From Clostridiaceae bacterium (GTDB lineage Bacteria > Bacillota > Clostridia > DUPQ01), in the NCBI GenBank assembly GCA_012838235.1, contig DUPQ01000069.1:1-64000 (forward strand): 64,000 bases of DNA, read 5' to 3'. The first letter of the stretch is position 1. Each line of letters starts with the position of its first letter. The position numbers were made by a program, and so were the translations under genes. Of this stretch, positions 39,192 to 57,728 are shown in pieces. A model generated the notes under the pieces. It ran no database searches. It was not told the DNA's origin and saw nothing but the letters and a program-made list of their open reading frames with translations.

Positions 39192-39268
39192 TGGTTGCGG
39201 AGAAAGGATTTGAACCTTTGACCTCCGGGTTATGAGCCCGACGAGCTTCCGGACTGCTCTACTCCGCG
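39192..39268 (-). tRNA. tRNA-fMet (CAT), initiator
   Basis: The 77-nt gene folds as a cloverleaf, starts CGCGGAGTAGAGCAG and has a CAT anticodon in GGGCTCATAACCC. The C1-A72 mismatch and the three GC pairs beside the anticodon loop are the initiator hallmarks. CCA is encoded. It is the second tRNA of a two-gene unit. Confidence 0.95.
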
Positions 39269-39274
39269 GCATAC

Positions 39275-39362
39275 TGGTACCGAAGACCGGGGTCGAACCG
39301 GTACAGTCTATTCGACCGCAGGATTTTAAGTCCTGTGCGTCTGCCTATTCCGCCACTTCGGC
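39275..39362 (-). tRNA. tRNA-Leu (TAA)
   Basis: The 88-nt gene starts GCCGAAGTGGCGGAATAGGC, has the anticodon TAA in CAGGACTTAAAATCCTG, a long variable arm and encoded CCA. It is six bases from the fMet gene. Confidence 0.95.
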
Positions 39363-39383
39363 ATGGCTTTAGAGACTTTTCCT

Positions 39384-39412
39384 ATTATATACATCACTTT
39401 GTCTATTGTCAA
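39384..39412 (-). promoter_or_regulatory. Consensus promoter of the Leu-fMet tRNA unit
   Basis: TTGACA (39407-39412) and TATAAT (39384-39389) have a 17-bp spacer on the minus strand and sit 21 bp before tRNA-Leu. They match the sigma-70 consensus exactly. Confidence 0.92.
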
Positions 39413-39419
39413 CCGAAAT

Positions 39420-40520: not shown

Positions 40521-40546
40521 ATTGCCTTTTCATTCAATATAATGCG

Positions 40547-41257
40547 TTAAACAGCTCCTTGTAAAACCTCTCTTTTGTAATCGGATATGTATTCTATGAG
40601 GCAGCCTGCTATGATTTCATGCCCTTTTTCATTGGGATGAATGCCGTCTCTGCATAACAGTTCCATCAGGTTTTTTGCATCCAGGAATGCCTTCCTTATA
40701 TCTATAAGCCGGACATTCAACTGTTTGGAAATATGCTCTATGGTAAGAGAATAAAGCTCCTGAAATCTGTATATCTTGAATACATCCTTAAGCCACTTCA
40801 GTATGGCTTCTTTTGATGTTCCGTCTTTTGTTATCCAGTCCAGATATCTGACGGGATCTATCGGGTGCAGGTTGGTCAGAACCGGTTCAATACCTTTTTC
40901 TCTGAACATGGTAACCATCTGCCTTATTGTCTTATCAAACACTTTAATAGGGGTATTGGGGTCATGGTTAATATCCGGGTTTGATGCTACTTCCTTCCAG
41001 TTAAAATCGCAGTCATTACCTCCCAATTCAATAAGTGCAAAATCCGGTTTAATATCACTTTCTTCCAGATTCTTCTTCATTCTTTCCAAAGCCTTGGGTG
41101 CGGTCATACCGTATTTGGAATTATTGACATATGTGATATTAAAGTTTTTAGCGGTTTCCGGTATGCAGCTGTTCTGTAGAAAAACATACTTACCGGCATT
41201 GTCATCATATACAACGCCTCTCAAAACCGAATCTCCCCATATTGATATATTGGTCAT
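40547..41257 (-). CDS. SGNH/GDSL-family hydrolase
   Basis: The 236-residue protein has the four family blocks: GDS in ISIWGDSVLRG (catalytic Ser), the Gly of KYGMTA, GGND in ELGGNDCDF, and DGIHPNEKGH (catalytic Asp-His). No signal peptide is present, so the enzyme is probably cytoplasmic and could deacylate a lipid, sugar ester or thioester. GGGGAGG precedes the ATG. Confidence 0.9.
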   Translation of the reverse strand: MTNISIWGDSVLRGVVYDDNAGKYVFLQNSCIPETAKNFNITYVNNSKYGMTAPKALERMKKNLEESDIKPDFALIELGGNDCDFNWKEVASNPDINHDPNTPIKVFDKTIRQMVTMFREKGIEPVLTNLHPIDPVRYLDWITKDGTSKEAILKWLKDVFKIYRFQELYSLTIEHISKQLNVRLIDIRKAFLDAKNLMELLCRDGIHPNEKGHEIIAGCLIEYISDYKREVLQGAV

Positions 41258-41366
41258 AACAAAATCCTCCCCGTATTACCTTACACTATATATGCGGAAG
41301 ATGAACTAAATATGACTTTTTAAGCTTATTAAGTTAAATCAATATTAATTAATGTATAAGAAAAAT

Positions 41367-42044
41367 CTATTTCTTAAACAGCTCCAGCAGAAGATTGTTG
41401 TTATACAGGACACTTGCCAGTTTACTTTCCTGAATTGTTTCATGAACTACACTCATTACTTCCGCTGTCTGGAAACCGGAAATGAGCAGGAGTATTATAT
41501 AAACCAACAGTAATCCCGATACTCCTCCGATAACCGCTCCTACTATTGCATCTACCTGCTTGATAACCGGCAGTTCCGATATTTTCTTTACCAATCCTCT
41601 GAGAAGTTTGAATATTATCAATAACAGAATAAACAATATGATACCTATGATTATTACTATTATAAGGTCGGTTATGTTAGCAACCAATCCGCCCATAGCT
41701 TCCGCTTTTGTGGTGGTTTGGGAAAAATCTATTCTCTCTATAAGCCAAATCTTTATATCATCGGGAAACGGCAAAGAATTGACGGTAGCGATAATCGCTT
41801 CTTCCACCGAATCCAGATTGGGTACCAATGCTTCCGCCATATGCTCAATCTTTTCATGTATGTTGTTATAGAAACTGGTTCCCACCAACAAATCTCTGAT
41901 GGGCTGAGCGAATTTAAAGGAGAGAAAAATACTTAAGATGGTGGTCAGCAATCCGTATGCCGACATGATGATTCCCCTTATTCCTCCCAAAATCATGGAA
42001 ACAATTATTATTAATATTAAGATATAGTCTGCTACATTCATCAT
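41367..42044 (-). CDS. cvpA: CvpA-family membrane protein
   Basis: The 225-residue protein has four hydrophobic segments and begins with ADYILILIIIVSMILGGIRG, typical of CvpA (colicin V production family). The C-terminal part has the glycine-rich VDAIVGAVIGGVSGLLLV. In bacteria the family is linked to purine metabolism or envelope function; the exact role here is unknown. AGAAGGAGATAA precedes the ATG. Confidence 0.88.
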   Translation of the reverse strand: MMNVADYILILIIIVSMILGGIRGIIMSAYGLLTTILSIFLSFKFAQPIRDLLVGTSFYNNIHEKIEHMAEALVPNLDSVEEAIIATVNSLPFPDDIKIWLIERIDFSQTTTKAEAMGGLVANITDLIIVIIIGIILFILLLIIFKLLRGLVKKISELPVIKQVDAIVGAVIGGVSGLLLVYIILLLISGFQTAEVMSVVHETIQESKLASVLYNNNLLLELFKK

Positions 42045-42102
42045 TTATCTCCTTCTACATATATTCTCCCACACTTCATATAAATCATCAATCTACAGCT
42101 AT

Positions 42103-43209
42103 CTAATACTTATAAACAATCACATTCCTTGACGTTAATATGGCAATTCTGTGACCGCCTATCGCTATTACCTGTTGTATAAGCGAATCGGTTTCCACTG
42201 TATGGAAATCATTTCCCTTAAGTGTAAACATGCTCAAGGTCTGTGCTTTCCAGATTACCGGTTTGTTCTCGGAAACCGAAAATCCCTGAACATCCTCTTG
42301 CAATGCTTTTTCCCATGTCAATGAACCGATTGAATCTATCTTAAATATCCTGTCTTCACCGTCTATTATACCATATCCGTATGCATGGTTTTCATATCCT
42401 TTTAAATAAACAATCTGTTGATCTTTAAAAACCGAGGTCTTTTCCATTACTTTATCTATCAGCAAAACATCGGTATCATTGGCCATAAGAAATTTTCCGT
42501 CTTGCAAACATACCGTTTTGGGCAGGAACCCGTCCAATGTGATACCTGCTATCGGAGTGGGTTTCCCTATTTCAAACACCTCAATATGTGTTTTTGACAT
42601 ATCATCGGGGACACAGGAAACAACCGCAAATTGCTCCTTATCATCAAACATGTCAAGATAAACGGGATATCTCTCGGAATATTGTATATCATTCTTGTAT
42701 CCGTCGGGTATTATGAGGTTTGTCTGATATGTCGAACAGTATACCGCTCCGAGGTATCCTTGTAAGCCTTCGCAAAGTAAAAACATATATTCATCAAATG
42801 CGAATACATATGTTATGGCGGTTTTTGCAGTATATTCATCTACCTTCTTACCTTCACAAAAAACGGTGTACGATGTGGCACCTTTATCATATACCACTAC
42901 ATGCGTATCGGAATAGGCAATCTTTGTGTCTGTATAGGAAAGAAGATAAGAGCGTAAAAACTCTCCGTTGCTTTTGAAAATGGATAAGTTGTTGTCGGTA
43001 CAGATATATATATACCCGTTTTCCGATGCAACAACACTTCCCGTCACTACGGGAATTGTGTATTGTACGCCGGCATCTTTTGCTACTACATCGGCCTTAA
43101 AGAACCTGAGTATCTCCGTTCTGAAAAATATGAAACCGACCGCTACCAATACCGCAAGCAGCACGACAATTATAATCCAGTAAGCTTTTTTCTTTCGTTT
43201 TTTAGCCAA
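42103..43209 (-). CDS. DUF5711-like membrane-anchored beta-propeller protein
   Basis: The 368-residue protein has one N-terminal transmembrane helix (about 9-30) and a beta-rich extracellular domain with repeated strand pairs (VVASENGYIYICTDNNLSI; TDVLLIDKVMEKTSVFKD). It appears to be a small propeller. Translation starts at TTG (43207-43209), nine bases after AGGAGAT. It lies with cvpA in a minus-strand cluster. Function not known. Confidence 0.7.
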   Translation of the reverse strand: MAKKRKKKAYWIIIVVLLAVLVAVGFIFFRTEILRFFKADVVAKDAGVQYTIPVVTGSVVASENGYIYICTDNNLSIFKSNGEFLRSYLLSYTDTKIAYSDTHVVVYDKGATSYTVFCEGKKVDEYTAKTAITYVFAFDEYMFLLCEGLQGYLGAVYCSTYQTNLIIPDGYKNDIQYSERYPVYLDMFDDKEQFAVVSCVPDDMSKTHIEVFEIGKPTPIAGITLDGFLPKTVCLQDGKFLMANDTDVLLIDKVMEKTSVFKDQQIVYLKGYENHAYGYGIIDGEDRIFKIDSIGSLTWEKALQEDVQGFSVSENKPVIWKAQTLSMFTLKGNDFHTVETDSLIQQVIAIGGHRIAILTSRNVIVYKY

Positions 43210-43277
43210 TTAAAGATATCTCCTATCACTTTTATCAAACATATTCTACCACAATACATATACTGCTACAAACAACA

Positions 43278-44942
43278 TCAGAGCAAATTCGCAACAGTTA
43301 ACATATTAAACAGCATCTGTGCTATTTCGCTTCTTTGTATCTGTACTTTAGGCTCTACCTTAAGTGCGGAGTCGCTGAGTATATCTTTTTTGTAACAAAA
43401 AGCCATTGATTCCATTGCCCAATCCGCCACCGTTACATAGTCTTCAAACTGAGATAAAACATCCCTTATCTCGGCATTGCTCATCTTTGTATCCAGTCCG
43501 CATAATGCAGCTGCACGAGCAACCATTGTAGCGGCTTCCTGTCTTGTAATAGTGCCTTCGGGATTGAATTTTCCCTCTCCGACACCGTTTACTATCCCGT
43601 ACTTGTTGGCTGTTCCTATATAACCCGCATACCACTTATCCGAAGATACATCGCTGAACACTTTGGTATCCTCTTCAACAAGGCCTAACCCGCGGGTTAT
43701 TATGGTAGCAAACTCCGCTCTGGTCATATCGGCATCGGGTGCAAAGCTCTCCTTGCTTCTCCCGTTTATAATACCCCTCGAAGCAAGCGCCTCTATCGCC
43801 GCTATATTGGGACTGAATGTAATATCTTCAAATGTTGTACCGGGTGCGGTTATGGGCATAGGCAACACATCTTTATGCTTCCCCTCGAGACCTTCACCTT
43901 TTTTAACGGTAATATCAACAGAGCCTTCTACAGTTATAGCATCACTCATTCTGTAAAGGCTATTTTTACCCTCAATCGCTCTAAGAGCTGCAACCACTCC
44001 GTAAAATCCCTGTTCCGAAGCCATCTGATTGCTGCCGGAGCCGGAATATGTATGAAGAAAACTGCCGTCCTCTAACTGATAAGTCTTTAAATTATCCAAA
44101 AGAGTAACACCGTTTTTTGCAAAACGTGAATCGTCCAAAGGTATTCCGAGTTCACACAGTGCGACAAGCATTTGCACGCAGCTTTCGGAATTTGTTGTTC
44201 CCCAACTGTCAAAACTGCCGCTACCGCCCTGCTTACCGCTCATACATGCTAAAGCCTTTTTTGTCGCTTTAGCCACTTTAGGTTGGTCCTGATATTTTGC
44301 AAGAGCCTGAAGTGCCATTCCGGTAATGTCCGGATCGGGAATTTCGTCCTGAGCGGCAGCTATGGAACTTCCTCCGAACAAACTCCAGCCTCCGTCTTTT
44401 AGCTGACACTCTAAAATGCGGTCTATATACTTCTGTCTTGTCGCCTGAGTTTTGGCTTCTTTGTTTTCCGGAACTGGATAATCCCTTGTATCCAATGCAA
44501 TTAAAGCCCATATGGGTCCGTTAAGTCCCTGCCATACAGTTTTATCGTAATCACCTAAAGCATAAGTAAGGTCATAGCCTGCAACATCACGGGCATCTTT
44601 ACCGATTGAAGAAAGAGCTACAATAATACGGCTGTATTCCGTATATTTCTTTTCATGCAACACTCCCTTACAAGCCTTTACATAGTTTTCCACGGTAGCA
44701 TAATAGTTCTCGTAATATCCGTCCGGTACCTCATAACCGCTGCGTGCTAACCCTATTATCGCCCACTCTCCCCCGATAGACCCTACCTGCGGATTCTTTA
44801 CCGTATTTACCATATATTCAGCTGCTGCGGAAACCGACTTTTCCAACTCATCTTTTGAAAGAGCCGTTATGGGAGTTGCAAACCCCATAACAAGAGAAAG
44901 CACTATAAGCAATAAAACTGTTCTTCTCAATACTGTTTTCAC
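43278..44942 (-). CDS. Alpha/alpha-toroid (transcobalamin alpha-domain-like) SLH-anchored surface protein
   Basis: This 554-residue protein has a signal peptide (cleaved near 27), an alpha/alpha toroid (about 30-330) and three SLH repeats (about 370-554) that would bind the cell-wall polymer. The toroid shares its blocks with the larger neighbour: GSIGGEWAIIGLAR, DPDITGMALQALAKY and SEQGFYGVVAALRAIEG. The same fold occurs in squalene cyclases and in the alpha domain of intrinsic factor and transcobalamin. No catalytic DxDD motif of squalene cyclases is present. No DUF4430 domain is attached. It starts at GTG with AGGAGG and may be co-transcribed with the upstream 1881-residue gene. Confidence 0.85.
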   Translation of the reverse strand: MKTVLRRTVLLLIVLSLVMGFATPITALSKDELEKSVSAAAEYMVNTVKNPQVGSIGGEWAIIGLARSGYEVPDGYYENYYATVENYVKACKGVLHEKKYTEYSRIIVALSSIGKDARDVAGYDLTYALGDYDKTVWQGLNGPIWALIALDTRDYPVPENKEAKTQATRQKYIDRILECQLKDGGWSLFGGSSIAAAQDEIPDPDITGMALQALAKYQDQPKVAKATKKALACMSGKQGGSGSFDSWGTTNSESCVQMLVALCELGIPLDDSRFAKNGVTLLDNLKTYQLEDGSFLHTYSGSGSNQMASEQGFYGVVAALRAIEGKNSLYRMSDAITVEGSVDITVKKGEGLEGKHKDVLPMPITAPGTTFEDITFSPNIAAIEALASRGIINGRSKESFAPDADMTRAEFATIITRGLGLVEEDTKVFSDVSSDKWYAGYIGTANKYGIVNGVGEGKFNPEGTITRQEAATMVARAAALCGLDTKMSNAEIRDVLSQFEDYVTVADWAMESMAFCYKKDILSDSALKVEPKVQIQRSEIAQMLFNMLTVANLL

Positions 44943-44987
44943 AAATAACCTCCTGCACTGCTACTAAATAGCAGGGTATTTGAAACC

Positions 44988-45025
44988 GTACACCCGCCAC
45001 CTGAATAATCGGGCGACGGGTGTAC
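44988..45025 (-). other. Strong intercistronic hairpin without a T-tract
   Basis: GTACACCCG and CGGGTGTAC pair, extended by further G-C and wobble pairs, around a 10-base loop. No T-run follows on the minus strand, so it is more likely a processing or stabilising hairpin between the two SLH genes than a terminator. Confidence 0.6.
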
Positions 45026-45079
45026 TATTACTTTACATCATTAGTACAGTTACTCATTTTAAATCATTAGTATAACTGT

Positions 45080-48000
45080 CTACTTAACTATGTTTTTCAT
45101 AAAACGTGTAAGCATTACAGCAGCTTCGGCACGTGTTGTGTTGCCTGCGGGCACTATTCCGGTACGTGTACGTCCGTTTATGAGTTTTTCTCCGTTTGCC
45201 CACTTAAGCGCACCCAATGCCCATTCGCTTATCTCTTTTTTGTCACCGAATACGGTAAGGTCTCCGGTTTTGGATACATCATAATTCTTGTACTGTGCAT
45301 ACCTGTAAAGAATGGTTGCCATCTGCTCTCTTGTGATGCTGTCATTCGGAGCAAATATACCCTCTCCGTAACCGTTTACTATGCCGTTACTTGCAGCCCA
45401 GCATATTGCATCTGAATACCACATACCTTTTTTAACGTCGGTAAAGATGTTCTTACTATCTGCTTTAGGCTCTTTCTCCAAACGATAAAGCATTGTTACA
45501 AGCATTGCTCTACTTAATGTCTCTCTGGGTTCAAATGTGGTTTCACTTGTTCCTCTCATTATTCCCTTAGCATAGACATACTTAATCTCTTTTACAGCCC
45601 AGTGTTTATTCAGGTCGGTAAATGCCAGTACCACATCATCTAAGAGTACTACAAAAGTACTTAAGTGAGTTACACTGATACGTACATAGAGTCTACCGTC
45701 AATCTTTATACACTCACCTTTTATGGTTTCCGTGGAACCGTTCTTTGATATATGTACTACACTGTAGGTTTCACCTGCTTCAAACTCGTTACTTACAGGA
45801 ATGTCTATTGTAATGCTCTTTCCTCCGAAGCTTGATATCTCTTTACCGTCGGAAGATATACTTACCGAAACCACTATACCGCTTGATGTATCTATACTAT
45901 CATCCGTAACATCCGCTGCACTCTTTTTAGCAATACTTACCTCAATATCCGAGCCTTTAGCCTCGTTTGCTATGGAAGTTAAGGCATCGTTGGGAATGGT
46001 TATTATTCCGACAGGAGTATCTATCTCCAGACCTAAATTCTTCTCATCAGCTATGCTCTTTGCGGCAGTAGTCGGTATATTTACGGCTACATTCTTTGCC
46101 TTATCCGCTCCTGAGGGTGCAATACCTACACTTCCGGAAGAGCCGCTCTTTACTGCTTTTACTGCTGAGTTAATCTGCTCAGCGGTAACCGAAGCGGTAG
46201 CATCGGAACCGGTAACATCCGCTTTAGGTGTCAGAGTTGCTACACCTTGCTCAGCTGTATCGGTATCTTCCACTCCAGGCAGGTATCCGCCTACATCCTT
46301 GCCCAGGTCTCTTGTGTATACCCACTCAACTACATCATTTTCTTTCAATTCATACAATGATGAAGAATAACCGGGGAACACACCGTTAACCTTGTACATC
46401 CAACCGGACTGCGGACCGTCATCAAACTCACCGAATCCGCTTATAGCTTCAACATAAACGCCTGCATACTGTGAATGGTCCGATACCCGAAGTGTCAAAC
46501 CTGTGCGTCTGAGTATTGAATATGCCGTCTCACCGTCATTCATTTCCATTGCTGTGGGCGGAAAGTATACGCTCTGTTGGTTAGCTTTGGCATTGGGATC
46601 GGTTACACTGAGTCTGACATATTTAAGTTGAACGGCGGGTTCCGCTATTTTCAGTTTCGCTATTGCTGAAACCAATGAACTAACGGCATTATCCACAACC
46701 GCCTGAGTTACGGTTTCCAAGTCTCTTACAGCTTTTGCATCCCTTAGTTCAATTTGTAATGCACTCCAACTTCCCGCTGTATAATCGCTCTCACTGTATC
46801 TTTCCGCTTGTGCTATTTTCTCTTCCAATGCCGTTTTATCCGCAACCGCCGGAAGCACATCATCGGAAACCATCTTCACAACATCACTCATATCATAAAG
46901 GCGTGCTTTACCGTTTTTGAAGCGGTCATATGCTACCAATGCATATGCACCCTGCTCGCTTGACATTAAATTGGCTGCACTTTCACGTAAGAAAGCCTTG
47001 TTTGTAGCATCATAGTAGGAAAGAAGTATGCTGATATAGTTTTTACCGTTGAAATCGGCGGCATCTTCTCCCAATGCTGACAATGCTACTATTACCTGTG
47101 AACAACCTTCCGAATCGGTTATCTTCTGCCTGACAATCCATGCGAGAGCCTTGCCAACAGCTGCTGATACATCATCTTGCTCTTTGTATGGGGCAAGAGC
47201 CTGGATGGTCATTGCCGTAATGTCCAGATTGGGATTGGTATTGTCAAGCGACCAACCGTCGCCTACTTGGCAGCTTAAAATGTAGTCGACCAACTCCTGC
47301 CTGACCGGACTGTTCTTTGCGTACGGTAAAGAATCCATAGCTATCAATGCAAATACTGCACCGTTTATGCCCTGTCTTTTTACCCACTCGCTATCGGAAA
47401 GTAACGGAGCGATAAGGTTTTTACCGTTGACATTTACAGCACCGATTCCTAAAGAAGTCAAAGCCAGTATAAGTCGCGAGTTTTCCGTAGATTTGTTGTC
47501 ATTCAACTTGTCCGGTTTATCCGCTATACTTGTCAGTATGCGACTGTAATAACCGTCATAATACGGAGTATCTGAAAAACCGCCGCGCGCTAACGAAAGA
47601 ATAGCCCATTCACCGCCGATACTTCCCAATTCCGGGGTTTCCACATTACTTCTGATATAGTTAAGTACATCATTCAATGCACCCGCATAACCGTCTTTCA
47701 AAACAAGACGAGTCATTCTGTCGTTAAGATTTGCTAAAGCATTGTCAACTTTTCCCTGTGCGGCATTCCAATCGCCTTCAACTTGTTTTGCGGCACGTAA
47801 TGCGTTGAAAAACTCATCCCAACCCTCGATATAGTGGTCTTGGTTCTTTGTTTCCGCCAAAGTAATCGCTTCCCTAAGTGCGCCTTTATCGCCTCTAAGT
47901 ACAAGCATACTCTCTGACGGGAAAGTAATTGCATTCACTTCTTCAACAGTAGTTGCCGCATCAATCGATGCCATTGTTGTCTGGTAGCCTCTGCAATATG

Positions 48001-50725
48001 CCGTCCATGAACCCGGTGTATAAGGTAATTGATACAGATATCTATTTCTTTCCTCTATTTGTGCTTTCTTCTCCGCTTTCGCAGCCGCCAACTCCTCTTT
48101 AAGTGTCACCAGTCCGTCAGTTGACGGGATGCGAACCGCTTTTACTTCTTCCACCGATTCGGCACTGTTTACTTCTTCCTTTGCATTGTTAACAGCCGTT
48201 TGTAAGGCTGCCCACGATGCTTCAGTGTATTCGGCTTGCACTAAACCGTCAAAGACCGCTTCAAATCTTGCAATTCTCGCCGCTTTCTCAGAATCCAATA
48301 TTGTTACAAGATTCTCTGTCGAAGGGATAGATATTGCTTCTACCGCTGCTAAAGTTTTGGCATTTTGCACATCGGCTGTTGCCGTTGCCATCGCTGACTG
48401 CAATGCAGACCATGATGCTTTGGTATATATTGATTGGTTTAAACCGTCGGTAACGGCAGCTATTTGGGCAATCTTCGCCTCTTTAGCCGAAGCCAACTGT
48501 GAAGCAACCGCTACAAGACCGTCAGTTGACGGTATAGCTACTTCCTTTACCGCAGGAACATCGGTTGCGTTATTGACCGCTTGAATCGCATCGATTATCG
48601 CTGTCTGCAATGCTGCCCATGAATCGGCTGTATAGTCGGTTTCCGAAAAACCGTTGGTAACGCCGTTTATCTGAGCAATCTTTGCTCTCTTCACTTCTTC
48701 CAATTCCGAACCTGCCGCAACAAGACCGCTTATTGAAGGTATATTAACCGCTTCCACTGCGGCTGCATCCGTAGCATCGGTAACCGCTTGAATCGCATCG
48801 GTTATTGCGGTCTGTAATTCCGTCCATGAATCGGGTGTATAATCGGCCTCCGTCAAACCGTTGATAACGGCATTTATCTTTTCAATCCTGGCTGTTTTTA
48901 GGGTTGCAAGATGTGCCGCAACCGTTTCAAGACCGTCTGTTGAAGGTATTGCAACAGCATTAATGGCATCAACTGTTGTAGCTGCATGCACATTTGCAAT
49001 GGCACTTTGTATCAAAGCATAAAAACGTGTCCATGAATCTTTTGTGTAATCGGTCTCATCGACACCGGTATATACGGCATTAATTTGATCAATTCTTGCC
49101 TGTTTTGCCTCCTCAAGTTGCTGTGCAAGGCTTATAGTAACCGTTATATCAAAGTCTTTGGAAAAGTCTTCTTTTATTTTACCGTTTTCAATTGTTGCAG
49201 TAACCGTAACATTACCTTCCGACAAGGTATGTAAAATATTTTTCTCTATGAATGCACCTGTCGTACCCTGATTCTTAACAGTCCAGGTTATTTCTTTATG
49301 GGATGCATTATCCGGCTCTACCGTACCGACTAATGACAAAGGCGTCTCCGCAGCAACTTCGGCAGGGACATCAACAATATCCGTTACGGAAACGGATGTT
49401 TCTATGGTAATCAATGCATTCAGAGCACTTGACACCTCGTATTCTCCAACGGTAGTTTGTTTCAAAACAGTCATTGCGTCATCGTATGCAGTACCGTATA
49501 TCTCCGTTATGGCTTCAATAGAATTTGAATACTGCTTACGAATATTAGCAACCTTTCTTATAAGGTCACTCCTGTTCGCTCCGCCGCCTGTAGCACTGTA
49601 ATGCCCTACGTATATAAGACGCATAACGTCATTGTCTTCTAACGTATAACCGTCCATACCGGTTGAGGGGAATCTTTCATTAACGCAATACATCCAGCCG
49701 CTGAAAGAACCCGCATCTTTTTCGCTTAGGTATCCCTCTTTCTGCACCGTTCCCGAGCCCTTATACACAAAGTCCGGATCCCAAACACCTGCAAGATAAC
49801 CGCCGTTGTACCGATATGCTTCTTCACCCTTTTCGGGATAACGTGCTTTCAGAGCCTGCATCATAAGATCTGCCGCATTAAGACCTTTAGGCAGTTTCAT
49901 TTCTGTCGGTTCCACAATAAAATTGCCGTCAATAAACAATTTTTCCACCGTGATATATGTGATAATATACTCAACTGTAGGTCCGGTTGCTTCACCGCCG
50001 GCAATAATGGTATTTATTGCTTCTATTCCGGTATTTTTCACTTCTTCAATTTCTTTTATACTCGGAGCCATATTTATGGCTGTAACGGTTTCGTTATACG
50101 TCGAGTCAACATTTGAAGCAATATCGGCTGTTTCTCCGCTTGCGTTTTTGTAAGCATCGGTTTCTTTAGCAGCTTCCCAAACTTCGGTTAATGCATTTAT
50201 TGATGTTTCTCTTTTCTCATTTACAGCTGTAGCTGACGACCACTCTATTATGATAAAGCCTGCAATATGTGCTACGGCAGGACCAAGCCCAGGCATAGGT
50301 TGCATTCCATACCAATAATACCCGATAGTGTTTTCTTCCATGCAATCATTGACTATATCTTCCGGCAGAAAACCTTTTGTGTTCTCATAACACTCTTTAC
50401 CTATATTGGTCTCGGAAACTATACCCAACCGAACAAGCTGTATCATTTTGTATTGACCGGAAGGTGTACGAAGTACGGGCATCCTGTTGCCGAGCATATC
50501 CCGTCCCTTTAACTGTACAGAGCCATATTTGGAACCGTCAAGGGACAGCTTATATATATCCATTGTTTGACCGCTCTGAGTAAATGAACCTATTTTCGTT
50601 GCCGTTGTATCCTTAAGCTCATATATTGCTGTTGCGGAAAATACACCTAACGGGCATATTTGCAGGAGTATAAGCAGGGATAAAATAACAGCTAAAAACT
50701 TATTTACTTTTATACTTCTTTGCAT
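45080..50725 (-). CDS. Giant SLH-anchored protein: DUF4430, Ig-like, FIVAR-type repeats, alpha/alpha toroid, DUF4430, SLH
   Basis: The 1881-residue surface protein has (numbering from 11 residues upstream) a signal peptide (about 15-42), a DUF4430 domain (about 270-390, GWMYCVNERFP), an Ig-like domain (about 450-545) and six degenerate 65-70-residue FIVAR-type repeats (about 545-960; ARIEKINAV, YTPDSWTELQTAI, IPSTDGL). A toroid (about 1050-1335; GSIGGEWAILSLAR, LDITAMTIQALAPY) is followed by another FIVAR, a second DUF4430 (about 1395-1500; GWMYKVNGVFPGYSS, VVEWVYTRDLGKDVGG) and three SLH repeats (1700 on). ATAAGGAGA supports the ATG at 50725. A cobalamin riboswitch and terminator lie upstream. 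It is best read as an intrinsic-factor-like B12-capture protein. Confidence 0.9.
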   Translation of the reverse strand: MQRSIKVNKFLAVILSLLILLQICPLGVFSATAIYELKDTTATKIGSFTQSGQTMDIYKLSLDGSKYGSVQLKGRDMLGNRMPVLRTPSGQYKMIQLVRLGIVSETNIGKECYENTKGFLPEDIVNDCMEENTIGYYWYGMQPMPGLGPAVAHIAGFIIIEWSSATAVNEKRETSINALTEVWEAAKETDAYKNASGETADIASNVDSTYNETVTAINMAPSIKEIEEVKNTGIEAINTIIAGGEATGPTVEYIITYITVEKLFIDGNFIVEPTEMKLPKGLNAADLMMQALKARYPEKGEEAYRYNGGYLAGVWDPDFVYKGSGTVQKEGYLSEKDAGSFSGWMYCVNERFPSTGMDGYTLEDNDVMRLIYVGHYSATGGGANRSDLIRKVANIRKQYSNSIEAITEIYGTAYDDAMTVLKQTTVGEYEVSSALNALITIETSVSVTDIVDVPAEVAAETPLSLVGTVEPDNASHKEITWTVKNQGTTGAFIEKNILHTLSEGNVTVTATIENGKIKEDFSKDFDITVTISLAQQLEEAKQARIDQINAVYTGVDETDYTKDSWTRFYALIQSAIANVHAATTVDAINAVAIPSTDGLETVAAHLATLKTARIEKINAVINGLTEADYTPDSWTELQTAITDAIQAVTDATDAAAVEAVNIPSISGLVAAGSELEEVKRAKIAQINGVTNGFSETDYTADSWAALQTAIIDAIQAVNNATDVPAVKEVAIPSTDGLVAVASQLASAKEAKIAQIAAVTDGLNQSIYTKASWSALQSAMATATADVQNAKTLAAVEAISIPSTENLVTILDSEKAARIARFEAVFDGLVQAEYTEASWAALQTAVNNAKEEVNSAESVEEVKAVRIPSTDGLVTLKEELAAAKAEKKAQIEERNRYLYQLPYTPGSWTAYCRGYQTTMASIDAATTVEEVNAITFPSESMLVLRGDKGALREAITLAETKNQDHYIEGWDEFFNALRAAKQVEGDWNAAQGKVDNALANLNDRMTRLVLKDGYAGALNDVLNYIRSNVETPELGSIGGEWAILSLARGGFSDTPYYDGYYSRILTSIADKPDKLNDNKSTENSRLILALTSLGIGAVNVNGKNLIAPLLSDSEWVKRQGINGAVFALIAMDSLPYAKNSPVRQELVDYILSCQVGDGWSLDNTNPNLDITAMTIQALAPYKEQDDVSAAVGKALAWIVRQKITDSEGCSQVIVALSALGEDAADFNGKNYISILLSYYDATNKAFLRESAANLMSSEQGAYALVAYDRFKNGKARLYDMSDVVKMVSDDVLPAVADKTALEEKIAQAERYSESDYTAGSWSALQIELRDAKAVRDLETVTQAVVDNAVSSLVSAIAKLKIAEPAVQLKYVRLSVTDPNAKANQQSVYFPPTAMEMNDGETAYSILRRTGLTLRVSDHSQYAGVYVEAISGFGEFDDGPQSGWMYKVNGVFPGYSSSLYELKENDVVEWVYTRDLGKDVGGYLPGVEDTDTAEQGVATLTPKADVTGSDATASVTAEQINSAVKAVKSGSSGSVGIAPSGADKAKNVAVNIPTTAAKSIADEKNLGLEIDTPVGIITIPNDALTSIANEAKGSDIEVSIAKKSAADVTDDSIDTSSGIVVSVSISSDGKEISSFGGKSITIDIPVSNEFEAGETYSVVHISKNGSTETIKGECIKIDGRLYVRISVTHLSTFVVLLDDVVLAFTDLNKHWAVKEIKYVYAKGIMRGTSETTFEPRETLSRAMLVTMLYRLEKEPKADSKNIFTDVKKGMWYSDAICWAASNGIVNGYGEGIFAPNDSITREQMATILYRYAQYKNYDVSKTGDLTVFGDKKEISEWALGALKWANGEKLINGRTRTGIVPAGNTTRAEAAVMLTRFMKNIVK

Positions 50726-50978
50726 TGTTAATCTCCTTATACAAATTAGTTTCTTCATATTAATACTCTCAAGTGACTAAATATCATCACCTGAACCTGT
50801 CATCTTTTGTGGAAAATCATTTGTAACTGTCAATATTTCATTTTCCGTGCATCAACCCCTTTCTTCATCGAATTTAGAGACCGCTTTGCAGCGGGGTTCT
50901 TTAAAAGAACTCGCTCCGCTGTTTTTACGATTGGTCTTTTTTCCGTCTTCGACAAAGGATGTGCTTAGGAATCAGATG

Positions 50979-51015
50979 AAAAAACCGCACGACAGTAAAT
51001 ATTTACCATCGTGCG
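50979..51015 (-). terminator. Riboswitch expression-platform terminator
   Basis: CCGCACGA and TCGTGCGG form an 8-bp stem, extended by AT pairs around TAAATATTTA, and are followed by TTTTTT on the minus strand. It lies between the B12 box and the start of the giant SLH gene, as expected of a transcription-attenuating switch. Confidence 0.88.
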
Positions 51016-51072
51016 GCTGTATCTTCGCACATCAAAACACCATGCCCCTGTCATTTATCGTGTGACGGCATG

Positions 51073-51276
51073 AATTCCGAGCAGGTCTCCTGACTTCGGT
51101 CCTTTTTATGCTCTCCCTTGCCTTATCAAATCATAACGATTCAATGACCGGTTTTCACCGCGGGAGTGCGGACCTTCACAGTGGCAGCGTCCGTGCCGGA
51201 TTCCGACCGGCTTCCCTTTTAACATGTATGCGTTCTTATTCCAAAGAACAGACCACCGCATACAGCACTCGAAATT
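51073..51276 (-). ncRNA. Cobalamin riboswitch controlling the giant SLH protein gene
   Basis: On the minus strand the aptamer contains AAAAGGGAAGCCGG, CGGAATCCGGCACGGACGC, GCCACTGTG, and the B12 box GTCAGGAGACCTGCTCGG. Outer P1 arms AATTTCGAG (51268-51276) and CTCGGAATT (51073-51081) pair with one wobble. It is followed by the terminator at 50979-51015 and then by the 1881-residue gene, so B12 should switch that gene off. Confidence 0.95.
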
Positions 51277-51331
51277 ATCTCCTGAAATCCCGTAAACTAC
51301 CGAGACTTCAAACTCAACTAAACCATATCAC

Positions 51332-51360
51332 AAAGGGTATGCAATTGCTACCCTTTTTTT
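51332..51360 (+). terminator. Hairpin with T-run on the plus strand
   Basis: AAAGGGTA and TACCCTTT pair around GCAATTGC, followed by seven T on the plus strand. No plus-strand gene ends here. On the minus strand it follows the yhcG stop, where the T-run is short, so it may be a bidirectional or weak yhcG terminator. Confidence 0.55.
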
Positions 51361-51369
51361 ACTTTTCAA

Positions 51370-52428
51370 CTATAAAAATACCTCTTTTCCGATTGCCATA
51401 ACGCCTTGCTCAATTTCTTTAATACTCGGCAAACTGCTCCTGTAATCTTTCGGAAGAAGTTGAGATAAATGATATTCTGAAATTCCGATAGGTTGACTGC
51501 TGGATTCCAAAGCATATTCAGCCACGACATTATCCTTTGTTTTACAGATTAACAATCCCAATGTTTCATTATCTGCTTCCTTTTTCCTCTGATGATTCAT
51601 TGCAGCAACATAAACACCTAATTGCCCGATATAGCCGGGTTCAAATTCCGTCGCCTTGAGTTCCACAACAACATAGCATCTAAGCTCCAAGTGATAAAAC
51701 AATAGATCAATAAACATCTCTTTTGAGCCAACCATAATCGGCACCTGTCGCCCCACAAAAGCAAAGCCTTGCCCCAGCTCTAATAAAAACTGAGTAATAT
51801 TCGTTGTCAATGCATCCTCTAATTCTTTTTCCCTATATCCTTCCGTCAAGGTAAGGAAATCAAAATTATATGGATCTTTTAATGTTTCTTTTGCTAAATC
51901 ACTTTGAGAATCAGGCAGGAGAGTTGTAAAATTTGTGATTGCCTTTCCTTGTGTTGTGTAAAGAGTCGTATCTAAATAATTGAGAAGTACTGCTCTGCTC
52001 CAACCGTTTTTAATTGTTTTCTCAATGTAAAACAACGCTTCTTCCGGACTTTTACATTTTGTCATTAACAGAATATGATGTCCCCAAGGAATTGAGAATA
52101 TATATTCCAATTGGTCAACAGCCTGTTGACTTTTTTGGTAAAACAAATAAAAGCGCTTCATATACTTAAGGTTAGTTTCGGAAAACCCTTGCAGTTTAGG
52201 AAATTCCTTGCACAAATCTTTTGACAGTGACTTGATAAATGCATCGCCCCAAGCACACTGTTCCTGTCTTAATGCAATTTCCTTTCCGAAATTCCAATAC
52301 AAGTCCAAAAGTTCATAGTTCACTTTTACAGCAGCTTTTAGTTGACTGCTTCTCACTCTTTCTTTAAGTTCACCCAAGAGTTTTTGATACATATTGTCGT
52401 CAACAATACGCAAATTATTGTGTGCCAA
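51370..52428 (-). CDS. yhcG: YhcG-like protein with DUF1016 and PDDEXK nuclease domain
   Basis: The 352-residue protein has an N-terminal DUF1016 helical domain (YWNFGKEIALRQ, about 45-170) and a C-terminal PDDEXK-type nuclease (about 215-340; FIDLLFYHLELRCYVVVELK, with the D and ExK). TTLLPDSQSDLAKETLKDPY joins them. Family members are attributed to restriction-like or defence functions. Translation begins at TTG with GGGAGGTG upstream. It is inserted between the cobalamin transporter operon and the riboswitch of the SLH gene. A decayed relative lies at 3226-3629. Confidence 0.9.
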   Translation of the reverse strand: MAHNNLRIVDDNMYQKLLGELKERVRSSQLKAAVKVNYELLDLYWNFGKEIALRQEQCAWGDAFIKSLSKDLCKEFPKLQGFSETNLKYMKRFYLFYQKSQQAVDQLEYIFSIPWGHHILLMTKCKSPEEALFYIEKTIKNGWSRAVLLNYLDTTLYTTQGKAITNFTTLLPDSQSDLAKETLKDPYNFDFLTLTEGYREKELEDALTTNITQFLLELGQGFAFVGRQVPIMVGSKEMFIDLLFYHLELRCYVVVELKATEFEPGYIGQLGVYVAAMNHQRKKEADNETLGLLICKTKDNVVAEYALESSSQPIGISEYHLSQLLPKDYRSSLPSIKEIEQGVMAIGKEVFL

Positions 52429-52562
52429 AGAAACACCTCCCTATCTCAAGTAGTTAATATACTTGAAAATATTATACCATTTTTAAGATGCCCTATCTAT
52501 TCGTTTTCTGATGATAACAGAAAACTGTTTGGCAGCTTTTTATGTTAAAGAAGCAAAAAACT

Positions 52563-55313
52563 TCACCTTTCTATAAGTCCGTACTTCAGTTTTACCCTGT
52601 CCAATTTCTCCAGCATGGGTTTTGCAATGGAAAACAGGAAGACAACGGTGGCAACCGCATGGATAAGGTCAAAAGGAATACCCCGGATATATGCAACATA
52701 GAACATTTCCATTGTGGGTTTTGCCTCATACATCAATACCGATGCGGGATTCATTATACCTCCGTATATTAAGAATGTAGCCAGTCCGCCGAAGATACAA
52801 AGTGCAATAGTATTGCGCCGTAATATTCCTTTTCTGAATAATATCCCGGCCAAAAACCCTATTATACCGAAAGCAAACATCTGCCAAGGTGTCCACGGAC
52901 CCTGACCGAAAAACATATTGGACACAAAGGCGGTAACCGCTCCTACTAAAAATCCCGTCTCCCCTCCGAATGCAACTCCCGCTATAATTACAATAGCCGC
53001 TACCGGCTTGAATTGCGGTAACATGAAAAAAGCCGTACGCCCCGCCACTCCTATGGCACAAAGCACCGCAATTATAATCAACTCTCTTGCCTGAGGTTTG
53101 CGCCCTTCAAATATAAGGACAAAAGGCAGCATGGTTTCCAATATTATCAGCATACTGATAAAATAATATTTTCTGTCCTCTAAATAATAGACGCCTAAGT
53201 AGATAGTTAATGGGATAGCTATAAGTATCATTGCAGCGGCAAGAAGTGTACGCTTGGAAAGCTTTCTTTTATCCGCCGCTACCTGTTCGTTATCTATCTT
53301 TGTATGTTTAGGCCGAAGAAGAATAAAGAACAGGAGTAATTCCGCTGCCAATGCAACGGCTAACAGAACATAGTGCCATATATTCATTTCTTTACCGAAA
53401 GAAACTACCGATAAATCACCCTGTTTAATAATAGCTGACAAATCCCCCATGTTGCTTACGGCAAAATATGCCGTTACAAGAAAGGCTAAAGCAGTAAGTA
53501 CTGCACCTGCTATACGCCAGGCGGGCAACTTATTATTCTTTTTTTCACTTTTTAATACACTTTTGTCATATTCCTCTGCTGTATCTTCTTTTGTATCTAT
53601 GGGCATAATGTTTCTATCTTCCGGTATCTTTATTTCAAAAGGTTCCGCTTTTCCCCCGCACGCATAAATTATATCTTCCGCAGTTATTGCGGTCGGAAGC
53701 ATATGTCTTGCCATTCTGTTGGCTGCGGTGGTATAGAAACTGTTGTCGGAAAAGAAACTTCGCGGGGTATTCCAGCTTACTATATTACCGTCAAAGAACA
53801 GAGCACATTTATGAGCATATTTTGCACAAAACTCAATATCGTGGCTTACCATGAGTACGGTAACGCCTTTATACAAAAGCTCATAAAGAATATTAGCGAA
53901 TATCCGTTTAAATTCCGCGTCCATGCCTTTAGTAGGCTCATCTAAAAGCAATATCTTAGGCTCTAAAAGAAGAACCTTGGCTAAAGCCGCCCGCTGTTGT
54001 TCTCCGCCTGACAAATCATAAGGGTGCATGGATAACAGCTCTTCCAATCTGCACAGTTTCGCGATCTTTGCTATTTGTTGCTCTTTTTCCGCTTTGGACT
54101 TCTTTTGTCCGGACAGCATTTCCAAAAGATCCTCCTGCACGGTCTTTTTAACAAAAAGTGCTTGAGGATTTTGCGGTAATACACCCAACATACGGTTAAA
54201 CAGTTCTTTATCCCCTATCTTGGACCGTTCTTTCCCGTTTATTCTAACCGTTCCTCTGTAAGGCTTGTTTATGCCGGATATGAGCGACAGTGCCGTGGTT
54301 TTTCCCGTACCGTTTCCGCCCAATATGGCATAGAACTCTCCTTGATATATTTTCATGGAAAGACCTTTAAGCACATCCGGAGCATCCTTTTCATATTTGA
54401 ACCATACTTCATCAAACTCAATAACGGGAATACCCTCTTGCTCCTTTATTGAATCCTCAGCAGGGATATCTCTTAACTGTTTGTTCTTTGTAAAGGTATC
54501 CAACCATGTACGTCCCTCTCTTACGGTAACGGGACAAGCAAGACTATTTTCCACACCCGCATAGACACGCATGGGAACAGGCATTGCTAAAAACATGCCG
54601 TGATGTAAGTCTTTCAACTGTTCACCCACTTCATTAGGTGTACCGTCACAGATTATCCGCCCTTCATCCATAACCAATACCCTGTCGGATATAGCGAAAA
54701 CCTCCTCCAACCTATGCTCGGTTATTATAACGGTGACACCTAATTCTCTGTTTATCTTTTCCACAGCGGAGATAAATTCCGTTGCCGCTATGGGGTCTAA
54801 CTGACTTGTGGGTTCGTCCAGTATAAGTACCGACGGTTGCATCGCCATGATAGCTGCAAGGTTCAGCAGTTGCTTTTGTCCTCCGGATAGTTCGGTAACA
54901 TTTTTATAAAACCAGGTCTCTATACCGAAAAATGAAGCCATTTCAGCTACTTTCAAACGGATAGCGGGTGTATTAAAGCCTAAACTTTCCAACCCGAAAG
55001 CCAATTCATGCCATACCTTGTCGGTAACAATCTGATTATCGGGAGATTGCATTACAAAACCTATCTTTGAACTTTGGGTACGTATATCAACTTCAGATAA
55101 CGGTTTCCCTTCAAATATGATATCTCCGCTTAAACTTCCATGCGGTGCAAGCACAGTTTTTAGTTGTCTGAGAAGTGTGGTTTTACCGCACCCCGAAGGT
55201 CCGCAAAGAGTTACGAACTGTCCCCGCTCTATGGAAAAAGAGAGATTATTTAATACTTTTTTCTCTTTCTCCGGATAGGAAAAAGTTAAATTTTTGATTG
55301 TATAGCTTTCCAT
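52563..55313 (-). CDS. Fused ECF transporter: two ATPases plus cobalamin-type S component
   Basis: The 916-residue protein joins two ABC ATPases to a membrane S component. ABC1 (about 1-240) has GPSGCGKTTL, LSGGQKQLLNLA and ILDEPTSQLD. ABC2 (about 285-510) has GGNGTGKTTAL, LSGGEQQRAALA and LLDEPTKGMD. After a charged linker come hydrophobic segments and a C-terminal S component (about 710-916) with RTAFFMLPQFKPVAAIVIIAGVAFG and FFGQGPWTPWQMFAFGIIGFLAG, as in predicted cobalamin S proteins. The ATPases would power vitamin import. It overlaps ecfT by 28 bp. The whole operon is under a cobalamin riboswitch, supporting B12 as substrate. Confidence 0.9.
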   Translation of the reverse strand: MESYTIKNLTFSYPEKEKKVLNNLSFSIERGQFVTLCGPSGCGKTTLLRQLKTVLAPHGSLSGDIIFEGKPLSEVDIRTQSSKIGFVMQSPDNQIVTDKVWHELAFGLESLGFNTPAIRLKVAEMASFFGIETWFYKNVTELSGGQKQLLNLAAIMAMQPSVLILDEPTSQLDPIAATEFISAVEKINRELGVTVIITEHRLEEVFAISDRVLVMDEGRIICDGTPNEVGEQLKDLHHGMFLAMPVPMRVYAGVENSLACPVTVREGRTWLDTFTKNKQLRDIPAEDSIKEQEGIPVIEFDEVWFKYEKDAPDVLKGLSMKIYQGEFYAILGGNGTGKTTALSLISGINKPYRGTVRINGKERSKIGDKELFNRMLGVLPQNPQALFVKKTVQEDLLEMLSGQKKSKAEKEQQIAKIAKLCRLEELLSMHPYDLSGGEQQRAALAKVLLLEPKILLLDEPTKGMDAEFKRIFANILYELLYKGVTVLMVSHDIEFCAKYAHKCALFFDGNIVSWNTPRSFFSDNSFYTTAANRMARHMLPTAITAEDIIYACGGKAEPFEIKIPEDRNIMPIDTKEDTAEEYDKSVLKSEKKNNKLPAWRIAGAVLTALAFLVTAYFAVSNMGDLSAIIKQGDLSVVSFGKEMNIWHYVLLAVALAAELLLFFILLRPKHTKIDNEQVAADKRKLSKRTLLAAAMILIAIPLTIYLGVYYLEDRKYYFISMLIILETMLPFVLIFEGRKPQARELIIIAVLCAIGVAGRTAFFMLPQFKPVAAIVIIAGVAFGGETGFLVGAVTAFVSNMFFGQGPWTPWQMFAFGIIGFLAGILFRKGILRRNTIALCIFGGLATFLIYGGIMNPASVLMYEAKPTMEMFYVAYIRGIPFDLIHAVATVVFLFSIAKPMLEKLDRVKLKYGLIER

Positions 55314-56179
55314 TTTCTATCCTCATTTACATTAATAACAACCGGCATTATACACAAGGCAAAGTAGCAGATATAAAGGGATATGGGATAAAGTTCAAAC
55401 CCCACACCTTTCATAGTGGGAAAATATCTCCAATATATACCGCCTAAAAAAGCCCCTAATATGATATATATTCCGCAAAGAGACAAAAAGAGCATAGCTT
55501 TTTTATCCCGCTTATCAAAACGATATATGGAAAAGGCTGTGCGTCCCGGCAAACCGTAACCGCGGCTTTTCATGGAATCCGCCGTTTCAATGGCGTTTTC
55601 CAACGCCCATGTAACCATAATGGACAGTATTCGTATACCGTGCTTTGCCCGCTGTAAAATACTTCCGTTGGAGACATCCCGCCCTATACACTTTTGCGCA
55701 TCGGAAACCACCTTAATCTGTGCCTTAAAATGTGGAACAAAACGTAAAGCCATGGATAATATCAGCGACAGAGCAGGAATAATGCGTCCGAAAAGGTACA
55801 CAAACTTATCGGAAGTCATAACCGCGTTATAGCAGGAAAACCAGGATATGACGGTAATAAGCATAACCGCTGCGGCTATTCCGTATGTTATGGATTCCAG
55901 CGTTAAAGGATTGCCGTCTCTAAGATAGGTAAGAATGGTGCCGCCTTCATGGTTAAAAGCGGGGTTTATAAGGGCGGTAATGATAAGTAGCGGTAACATA
56001 TATTTAAGATTGAAGAATAAAGCTTTTTTACCGTTCAAATAAATTGAATAACATAAAGCCGACAGTAAAGATGTTGCAAGACAAACAGGGTGCATAAAAA
56101 ACATGGAAAACACCAGTATTAAAGTGAAATACAGAAAGTTTACGGCAGGGTGGTATGTGGAAAACGTGTCTTTCATCAT
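55286..56179 (-). CDS. ecfT: ECF transporter T component (EcfT/CbiQ-like)
   Basis: The 297-residue membrane protein has at least five hydrophobic segments and the EcfT coupling motifs (ADSMKSRGYGLPGR, with the Ala-Arg-Gly type motif facing the ATPase). It links the two ATPase domains to the S component. Its ATG overlaps the upstream DUF4430 gene and its end overlaps the fused ATPase gene, so the three proteins are made together. Length is slightly above the usual 260-270. Confidence 0.92.
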   Translation of the reverse strand: MMKDTFSTYHPAVNFLYFTLILVFSMFFMHPVCLATSLLSALCYSIYLNGKKALFFNLKYMLPLLIITALINPAFNHEGGTILTYLRDGNPLTLESITYGIAAAVMLITVISWFSCYNAVMTSDKFVYLFGRIIPALSLILSMALRFVPHFKAQIKVVSDAQKCIGRDVSNGSILQRAKHGIRILSIMVTWALENAIETADSMKSRGYGLPGRTAFSIYRFDKRDKKAMLFLSLCGIYIILGAFLGGIYWRYFPTMKGVGFELYPISLYICYFALCIMPVVINVNEDRKWKAIQSKI

Positions 56180-56910
56180 TCTTCCCCCATAGCGTAATAT
56201 CCACCCACATCGCGTCCTAAATTACAGGTATATACCCATTCAACCACATCACCGGCTTTTAACTGATAACGGGAAGCGCCGTAATTGGGAAACCAACCGT
56301 TCACCTTATACATCCAGCCGGAAAGCTCACCTACATCAAACTCGTAAAGATTGTTGATACCTTCAATATATACACTGTTGTACATGGGAGTATTCACAAA
56401 CTCCATATGAATTCCTGCTTTCTTCATTTCTCTTCGAAGAATATTAAAAACCGATTCACCCTCATAGAAAGTTACTTCGGTAGCCGGGAAAATAACTCCG
56501 TCTTTCGGCACAAGCTCCACCTTTTCTTTGTCTAAATATTTCATATTATTCAATATGGTATCGCAACGGACAGAAAGAATGCAGGTATGTGCAGTGTCGG
56601 TTATAACGGCATCTTGGGGTTCTACGGGTATGGGTTTTCCTTCAGGAACAGGGTCGGTAAGATATCTGTCCTTGCCTGTTTCCTTATCAAATACCATACC
56701 CAACTGTTCGGAATAGGATTTGGAACCTTCAAAAACACCCTCCGAAGAACCCTCTCTTTGACAAGGTGTAGGAGAAGGACTTGCCGAGTTATATGATATA
56801 TCCGATACAGCATAATTGCCGCCCCAAATATATGTTACAACGAGGACACACAGTATAACTACTGCTGCAATTATTTTTCCCTTATGCTTTTTTATGCCCT
56901 TTACCTGCAA
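56176..56910 (-). CDS. Membrane-anchored DUF4430 (transcobalamin C-terminal-like) protein
   Basis: The 244-residue protein has one N-terminal transmembrane helix (about 13-33), a Ser/Pro-rich linker and a DUF4430 domain (about 105-240). It reads VIFPATEVTFYEGESVFNIL, ELSGWMYKVNGWFPNYGASR and VVEWVYTCNLGRDVGGYY. DUF4430 corresponds to the C-terminal beta domain of transcobalamin and intrinsic factor. As first gene of the riboswitch-controlled ECF operon it is a likely B12-docking partner that hands the vitamin to the transporter. TTG at 56908-56910 follows GGGAGG. No lipobox Cys is present. Confidence 0.88.
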   Translation of the reverse strand: MQVKGIKKHKGKIIAAVVILCVLVVTYIWGGNYAVSDISYNSASPSPTPCQREGSSEGVFEGSKSYSEQLGMVFDKETGKDRYLTDPVPEGKPIPVEPQDAVITDTAHTCILSVRCDTILNNMKYLDKEKVELVPKDGVIFPATEVTFYEGESVFNILRREMKKAGIHMEFVNTPMYNSVYIEGINNLYEFDVGELSGWMYKVNGWFPNYGASRYQLKAGDVVEWVYTCNLGRDVGGYYAMGEE

Positions 56911-56950
56911 CCTTTATCCTCCCGAATATTTGCACCCGCCACATCCCTGT

Positions 56951-56988
56951 TAAAAAACGGTCACAACCGCAAAAAACTGTTGCAACCG
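56951..56988 (-). terminator. Expression-platform terminator of the ECF-operon riboswitch
   Basis: CGGTTGCAAC pairs with GTTGTGACCG (two G-T pairs) over a T-rich loop and runs into TTTTTT on the minus strand. It lies between the aptamer and the first gene. Confidence 0.8.
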
Positions 56989-57029
56989 TATTCATGCTAA
57001 ACGCACTTACTCCAAAAAGGAGCACAGCA

Positions 57030-57215
57030 TCTTCTTGTAGGTCTTCTGACTAACGCTTCGCAAGACTAATAGTCTGCTAACCAAACTCTGCCTTCCCGGT
57101 TTCCCAGTGACCGACTTTCGTCAACGAGCATTGATTATGGGCGCTTACAGCGGCGGTACCGTTCGGGCTTTGCACCCGATTCCCTTGTTCAGTCTCACAT
57201 TGTGAGACCACAAAA
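57030..57215 (-). ncRNA. Cobalamin riboswitch of the DUF4430-ecfT-ecfAAS operon
   Basis: The minus strand reads GAACAAGGGAATCGGGTGCA, then GCCGCTGTAAGCG, GTCACTGGGAAACCGGGAAG and the B12-box-like GTTAGTCAGAAGACCTACAA. The order and conserved pieces are those of the cobalamin (class I/II-like) fold, with some deviations from consensus in the core (for example GCCGCTGT instead of GCCACTGT). Boundaries are approximate. Confidence 0.9.
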
Positions 57216-57362
57216 AGAGATATTTAATTTTTAAAGAGCTTACATAAACTCTTTTCAATGTCTTCTAAAAGACATTACCGACTTTAATTAAATCATAATT
57301 AAGGAAGTATAACAACATCTTTGTACGCATCTTTGTTTGTTTGACACACCGGTTTTTTTCTG
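57216..57362. other. AT-rich region between riboswitch and tRNA promoter
   Basis: It contains the inverted repeat GTCTCACATTGTGAGAC near 57200-57216 at the 5' edge of the riboswitch, and no further recognisable gene. The transcription start for the riboswitch operon must lie here, but no clear minus-strand -35/-10 pair is evident. Confidence 0.4.
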
Positions 57363-57560: not shown

Positions 57561-57563
57561 TAT

Positions 57564-57639: not shown

Positions 57640-57644
57640 AACGA

Positions 57645-57719: not shown

Positions 57720-57728
57720 TTTATTTAT

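Follow-up and report, generated by a model that had tools for sequence, protein, structure and literature searches.

A secreted protein of 554 residues, composed of an α/α toroid and three SLH repeats, is probably the α half of a split B12 receptor of the intrinsic factor/transcobalamin type in a Clostridiaceae bacterium, and the free DUF4430 protein encoded at 56176-56910 is most likely its β half. Both genes lie in the window, by which we mean the whole stretch of 64,000 nucleotides analysed here (GenBank assembly GCA_012838235.1, contig DUPQ01000069.1, positions 1 to 64,000; Table 1).

We infer that B12 is bound, that the halves assemble in trans, which partner takes part and how B12 is handed over; these steps would run as follows. 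A signal peptide would export the 554-aa protein, and its three SLH repeats would attach it to the secondary cell-wall polymer. Judging from the fold, the operon context and the conserved residues, its toroid would form one wall of the B12 site, while the DUF4430 domain of another protein would form the other wall; the most likely candidate is the membrane-anchored protein encoded together with an ECF-CbrT transporter. B12 would be clamped at the cell surface between wall-anchored α and membrane-anchored β, beside the ECF importer. The CbrT-type S component would then receive it, and ATP would drive the import. When B12 is scarce inside the cell, the riboswitches would turn on both operons. 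Assembly in trans around B12 at the cell surface is proposed by analogy with the human carriers, which hold B12 sandwiched between two domains, and whose TC-α and TC-β halves, when expressed separately, co-elute only with B12 (PMC5599065). The human carriers let go of B12 only after proteolysis (PMC11107200); separate halves would make the clamp reversible.

Table 1. Coordinates of the features of the window.
Feature	Positions	Strand	Evidence or remark
14-kb block with both riboswitch operons and the YhcG-family gene	43279..57354		Same-genus genomes lack it at this site
Gene of the 554-aa toroid-SLH protein	43278..44942	minus	GTG start; proposed α half of the split B12 receptor
Signal peptide of the 554-aa protein, residues 1-28	44859..44942	minus	MKTVLRRTVLLLIVLSLVMGFATPITAL, judged by eye; model helix 2-21
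α/α toroid of the 554-aa protein, residues 30-338	43929..44855	minus	AF2 model; Foldseek and VIA matches over residues 25-326
Three SLH repeats of the 554-aa protein, residues 372-553	43284..43829	minus	Pfam SLH 4e-27; fold match 3pyw
GC-rich hairpin (14 bp) separating the 1892-aa gene from the 554-aa gene	44988..45025	minus	Sequence; not followed by a T run
1892-aa wall protein (DUF4430, FIVAR-like repeats, toroid, FIVAR, DUF4430, three SLH)	45080..50758	minus	Domain maps
DUF4430 copy β2 of the 1892-aa protein	46301..46549	minus	Pfam and domain map
Toroid of the 1892-aa protein	46883..47677	minus	Alignment to the 554-aa toroid and domain map
DUF4430 copy β1 of the 1892-aa protein	49598..49900	minus	Alternative partner for the 554-aa toroid
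Cobalamin riboswitch 5' of the 1892-aa and 554-aa genes	51073..51276	minus	Rfam RF00174, 64.1 bits
ECF ATPase-ATPase-S component fusion, S part CbrT-like	52563..55313	minus	Pfam; PDB match 6fnp_A
EcfT (CbiQ family) transmembrane subunit	55286..56179	minus	Pfam CbiQ 6.4e-10
Free DUF4430 protein with N-terminal membrane anchor	56176..56910	minus	DUF4430 at residues 151-228; proposed β half
Cobalamin riboswitch 5' of DUF4430-EcfT-EcfAA'S	57019..57230	minus	Rfam RF00174, 83.4 bits

Architecture of the toroid-SLH protein

The open reading frame of the 554-aa protein is intact, and a ribosome-binding site (AGGAGG) lies just 5' of its start codon. The sequence-only reading of this DNA had described the product as a toroid-SLH protein lacking a β domain, and the description was borne out by the Pfam match to SLH, by the toroid of the AF2 model (pLDDT 90.6, from an alignment with 53 orthologues) and by a Pfam search that found no DUF4430 in the protein. 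The toroid families themselves score below their Pfam curated cut-offs (23.8 vs. 26.1 bits for SQHop_cyclase_C, 19.1 vs. 26.5 bits for Prenyltrans). Membership in the SLH family is given by family and fold match alike: the SLH part of the model matches the SLH structure of Bacillus anthracis Sap (3pyw, Z 21.7), and ITRAE-type motifs (TRAE, TRQE, and QRSE) are present. The genome encodes several other SLH proteins and one PS_pyruv_trans protein (2.4e-43), a candidate for the CsaB-type enzyme that would pyruvylate the wall polymer. Full-length orthologues of the 554-aa protein, 50-67% identical, occur in dozens of Clostridia; judging from these sequences, the family is far beyond chance.

The toroid of the 554-aa protein is 42% identical to that of the 1892-aa neighbour (E 2.6e-41). 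Two blocks had been reported as common to them: GSIGGEWAI is exact, at residue 54 of the former and residue 1045 of the latter (chance matches expected for its DNA pattern, 0), while ITGMALQAL is only similar, the neighbour having ITAMTIQAL (6/9 identical).

Operons and riboswitches in the window

Both riboswitches of the window exceed the gathering score of RF00174 (31.5 bits). The gap of 137 bp from the 1892-aa gene to the 554-aa gene contains a hairpin, which was considered as an intrinsic terminator and, being followed by no T run, was not scored as one; the two genes are likely co-transcribed. The free DUF4430 protein, whose existence had been noted earlier, is matched by Pfam DUF4430 at E 1.5e-18. 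In the window, the proposed α and β halves belong to two separate adjacent riboswitch operons, and the order of the module is broken, unlike in most loci; this separation and the hairpin weigh against the split receptor. A gene of the DUF1016/YhcG PDDEXK nuclease family (51370-52428) is located between the two B12 operons.

In the source genome, which is 85.6% complete, only three cobalamin riboswitches were found, and each of them heads a DUF4430/toroid operon. The third, on contig 34, heads genes for a DUF4430x2-SLH protein, a toroid-SLH protein, and a DUF4430 lipoprotein. Because the genome has six DUF4430 domains for three toroids, the pairing of DUF4430 with toroids may not be one to one.

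Gene order in relatives

We compared 73 loci from one scan and more from a survey of relatives, not all of them independent, in Oscillospiraceae, Peptococcaceae, Tissierellia, Family XIII, and others. In the order that recurs in the domain maps, a gene for a large DUF4430-SLH protein comes first, the toroid-SLH gene second, and the free DUF4430 gene third, with EcfT and then the ECF ATPase-S gene behind them. Where there was room downstream, the free DUF4430 gene lay directly 3' of the toroid-SLH gene in 55 of 61 cases, with a median gap of 13 bp, and EcfT came next in 47 of these 55. Toroid genes devoid of SLH keep the same place before DUF4430 (L053, L054, L059, L126, and L136). A hydrophobic N-terminal anchor or a lipobox is found in 43/44 aligned free DUF4430 proteins. 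Most loci have cobalamin riboswitches, and in 11 of them one lies no more than 600 bp 5' of the toroid-SLH gene. The earlier suggestion that the toroid-SLH protein may pair in trans with the free DUF4430 protein, or be a half-carrier, is supported by this adjacency, by the location of both genes of the window in cobalamin-riboswitch operons, and by the human precedent described above.

The large partner varies in architecture, with toroid, β-propeller, cadherin-like, or Ig-like modules, and is missing or non-adjacent in several loci. Among loci with at least 5 kb upstream, 32 of 47 had no nearby protein that carries both a toroid and DUF4430, which likewise supports pairing in trans. In the closest relative (L084, 3207-9002), the large SLH-DUF4430 protein has a β-propeller and Ig-like repeats and no toroid; its β-propeller recalls the B12-binding BtuG of Bacteroides. 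In Candidatus Formimonas warabiya DCMF (L075, 2890-9011), the ~6 kb 5' of the toroid-SLH gene contain three cobalamin riboswitches. The orthologous operon is also present in a cultured bacterium, Clostridium viride DSM 6836 (L093).

The ligand

The only credible PDB match of the S part of the ECF fusion protein was 6fnp_A (E 1.4e-9), which is CbrT of the Lactobacillus delbrueckii ECF transporter for B12 and cobinamide (PMC5997447). Neither CbiD nor CbiC was found in the source genome, while proteins with B12-binding domains are present, and an importer is therefore needed; the absence of the B12 synthesis genes is provisional because the genome is only 85.6% complete. Judging from the kinship to CbrT and from the B12-binding-domain proteins of a genome in which CbiD and CbiC were not found, B12 or a related corrinoid is the best candidate for the ligand. 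A structure from Ruminococcus gnavus labelled "putative metal binding protein" (PDB 3u7z) matches the DUF4430 part of the model of the neighbour protein, and in this context we regard B12 binding as the better guess for it.

Fold and residue comparison with the animal carriers

When the toroid and second DUF4430 of the neighbour protein were modelled (46283-47692), all 17 Foldseek hits under E 0.001 were intrinsic factor, transcobalamin, or haptocorrin, including isolated transcobalamin β. The 554-aa model itself matched transcobalamin at a Foldseek E of 8.5e-5, among other toroid proteins. In its VIA ranking, squalene-hopene cyclase was at the top (Z 22.5) and sugar epimerases followed (~20); the animal carriers were not listed, which does not exclude them. 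Because cyclases and epimerases also match well by VIA, the toroid fold is not sufficient to identify the ligand. PDB profile searches gave no transcobalamin match with the 554-aa toroid and no transcobalamin β match with either the free DUF4430 protein or its family profile, so the link to transcobalamin rests on fold. The fused neighbour model says nothing about closure of the clamp, because its toroid and DUF4430 are undocked (rmsd 18-20 over both).

By hhalign, the toroid-SLH alignment alone gave no alignment with transcobalamin, and only wider toroid sets aligned. The toroid alignment with human transcobalamin, whose letters were verified against the PDB chain, was weak (E 0.024, probability 2%) and colinear over 237 columns; fused toroids also aligned weakly (E 0.0037). 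This weak alignment pairs E102, N141, D205, N251, and Q311 of the 554-aa protein with Q86, Y137, D176, N224, and Q273 of transcobalamin, respectively. We take Q86, T134, Y137, D176, and N224 to be B12 contacts of transcobalamin; Q273 is not among these contacts. Gln270 was also considered as a contact and was dropped, since the verified chain has Met270. The conserved toroid residues of the 554-aa protein are E102, Q138, N141, D205, N251, and Q311, of which D205 and Q311 each reach 98% conservation in a set of 118 diverse toroids.

Alternative functions

The B12 role could be the same and the partner another one: the toroid might pair with a wall DUF4430, i.e., β1 or β2 of the 1892-aa protein, as a capture layer on the wall, with the membrane DUF4430 protein acting as a separate relay. 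The toroid-SLH gene usually follows directly after a large DUF4430-SLH protein, often one in which no toroid is detectable; the 1892-aa protein has one DUF4430 copy to spare, and in the window both proteins are SLH-anchored and share one riboswitch. We nevertheless consider a wall partner unlikely, because, as described above, the large partner is variable and, in several loci, absent or non-adjacent; the free DUF4430 gene, by contrast, is directly 3' in 55/61. That the toroid needs no β domain at all, and binds B12 or another corrinoid by itself as a wall-anchored store, seems to us quite improbable: the α domain in the rat transcobalamin-B12 complex does bury ~560 square angstroms with the ligand (PMC11107200), and several toroid residues are highly conserved, but every known relative holds its ligand between two domains, and a toroid acting alone would leave the conserved adjacency to the DUF4430 gene unexplained.

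We give hardly any credence to a secreted enzyme with the toroid fold of terpene cyclases, prenyltransferases, or glycoside hydrolases, in spite of the VIA matches to squalene-hopene cyclase and sugar epimerases and of SQHop_cyclase_C Pfam matches (E <0.01) in 47/54 orthologues. The 554-aa protein shares with squalene-hopene cyclase and other class II terpene cyclases the toroid fold and a QW-like repeat (QLKDGGW), but it has a single toroid where squalene-hopene cyclase has two, and it would be extracellular and SLH-anchored in a B12 uptake context. Its DxDD motif reads DPDI; position 206 is I, L, V, or M, and never Asp, in all 54 aligned orthologues, which agrees with the previous argument against catalysis from the missing squalene-cyclase residues. 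Squalene-cyclase activity was rejected on the lack of DxDD and the single toroid. That the protein is simply a structural part of the S-layer, carried along in the operon with no ligand role, is just as hard to credit; SLH repeats and the several other SLH proteins of the genome would suit this view, but the toroid keeps many invariant polar residues, and the SLH-less toroids hold the same place before DUF4430.

Relation to known B12 capture systems

B12 capture at the surface of Gram-positive gut bacteria is poorly known. Transcobalamin, intrinsic factor, and haptocorrin (2BB5, 2PMV, 3KQ4, 4KKI) likewise combine an α/α toroid with a DUF4430-type β domain, but the toroid of the 554-aa protein is bacterial, shares its chain with no β domain, and would be held at the wall by SLH, and the proposed β half is a separate membrane protein; the 554-aa protein would accordingly act as half of a carrier rather than as a full member of these carriers. 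The accessible text of Burroughs et al. (2007; PMC1796856) predicted that Gram-positive secreted toroid-SLBB proteins in CbiO/CbiQ operons scavenge B12, described a second extracellular SLBB protein as often present, and proposed that animals took their B12 carriers from such bacteria. Because of this prediction, the split receptor is a variation on an already predicted bacterial system and not a new kind. The proteins of the SLBB clade are described as toroid-SLBB fusions, and that text describes no toroid-only SLH protein, no fixed place before DUF4430, and no link to CbrT; the words S-layer and riboswitch are absent from the paper. What is new here is the conserved toroid-only SLH family, its recurrent membrane DUF4430 partner gene, the links to riboswitches and CbrT, and the replaceable block.

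The S part of the window is homologous to that of ECF-CbrT from L. delbrueckii (6FNP), but it forms a fusion with two ATPases, and it is accompanied by genes for extracellular binding proteins, none of which is noted for CbrT in the accessible part of that report (PMC5997447). BtuG of Bacteroides also catches B12 at the cell surface on behalf of a transporter, but it is a β-propeller lipoprotein of the Gram-negative outer membrane, unrelated in fold to the toroid (PMC6143338). In the literature searched we found no experimental study of the pair of toroid-SLH and free DUF4430 proteins; corrinoid-starvation proteomics in Dehalobacter concerns other operons (PMC4285132).

Evolution of the toroids and the 14-kb block

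In a tree of 77 toroids, the free-standing toroids of the window type formed one group of 41 rows with a support of 86 (not starred) and without fused toroids, and the contig-34-type toroid fell elsewhere, among fused toroids. Because free-standing toroids sit in different lineages, toroid and β domain seem to have parted on more than one occasion; in the mapped cases, the toroid lies next to a free DUF4430 gene.

Two same-genus genomes (G002 and G003) match the window at 39192-43278, then have 28 bp, and then match again from 57355 onward; the empty sites are at 10842-10871 of L152 (G002) and 9060-9089 of L151 (G003). Each of these genomes has only one cobalamin riboswitch, and EcfT, ATPases, and CbrT are encoded directly behind its contig-34-type locus. 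The EcfT-ATPase-CbrT genes of this locus are present in three same-genus relatives, and the contig-34 locus of the source genome is without them: it is colinear to 12616 and resumes at 12685 (L015 vs. L062, 8975-5782). The only close CbrT found in the source genome is that of the window. The clean gap at the contig-34 locus looks as if the ECF transporter of the window had replaced the native one. These observations are most simply explained if the source genome acquired the block and lost its native transporter; the relatives may instead have lost the block.

We see an even balance for and against a more general picture, in which many Clostridia would use a two-anchor clamp that is assembled only with B12 and feeds a CbrT-type ECF importer by its disassembly, and in which the 14-kb block would be mobile and able to displace a resident transporter. 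The split receptor, if right, would provide a named, testable receptor pair common to dozens of Clostridia and a bacterial intrinsic-factor clamp in the disassembled state, and would answer how a tight clamp could free its cargo without digestion.

No integrase was seen inside the block, and a search for candidate attachment repeats gave only a 9-bp match, possibly due to chance. The GC content of the block is 42.4%, vs. 39.5% in the rest of the window, and a tRNA cluster (57484-57800) adjoins it.
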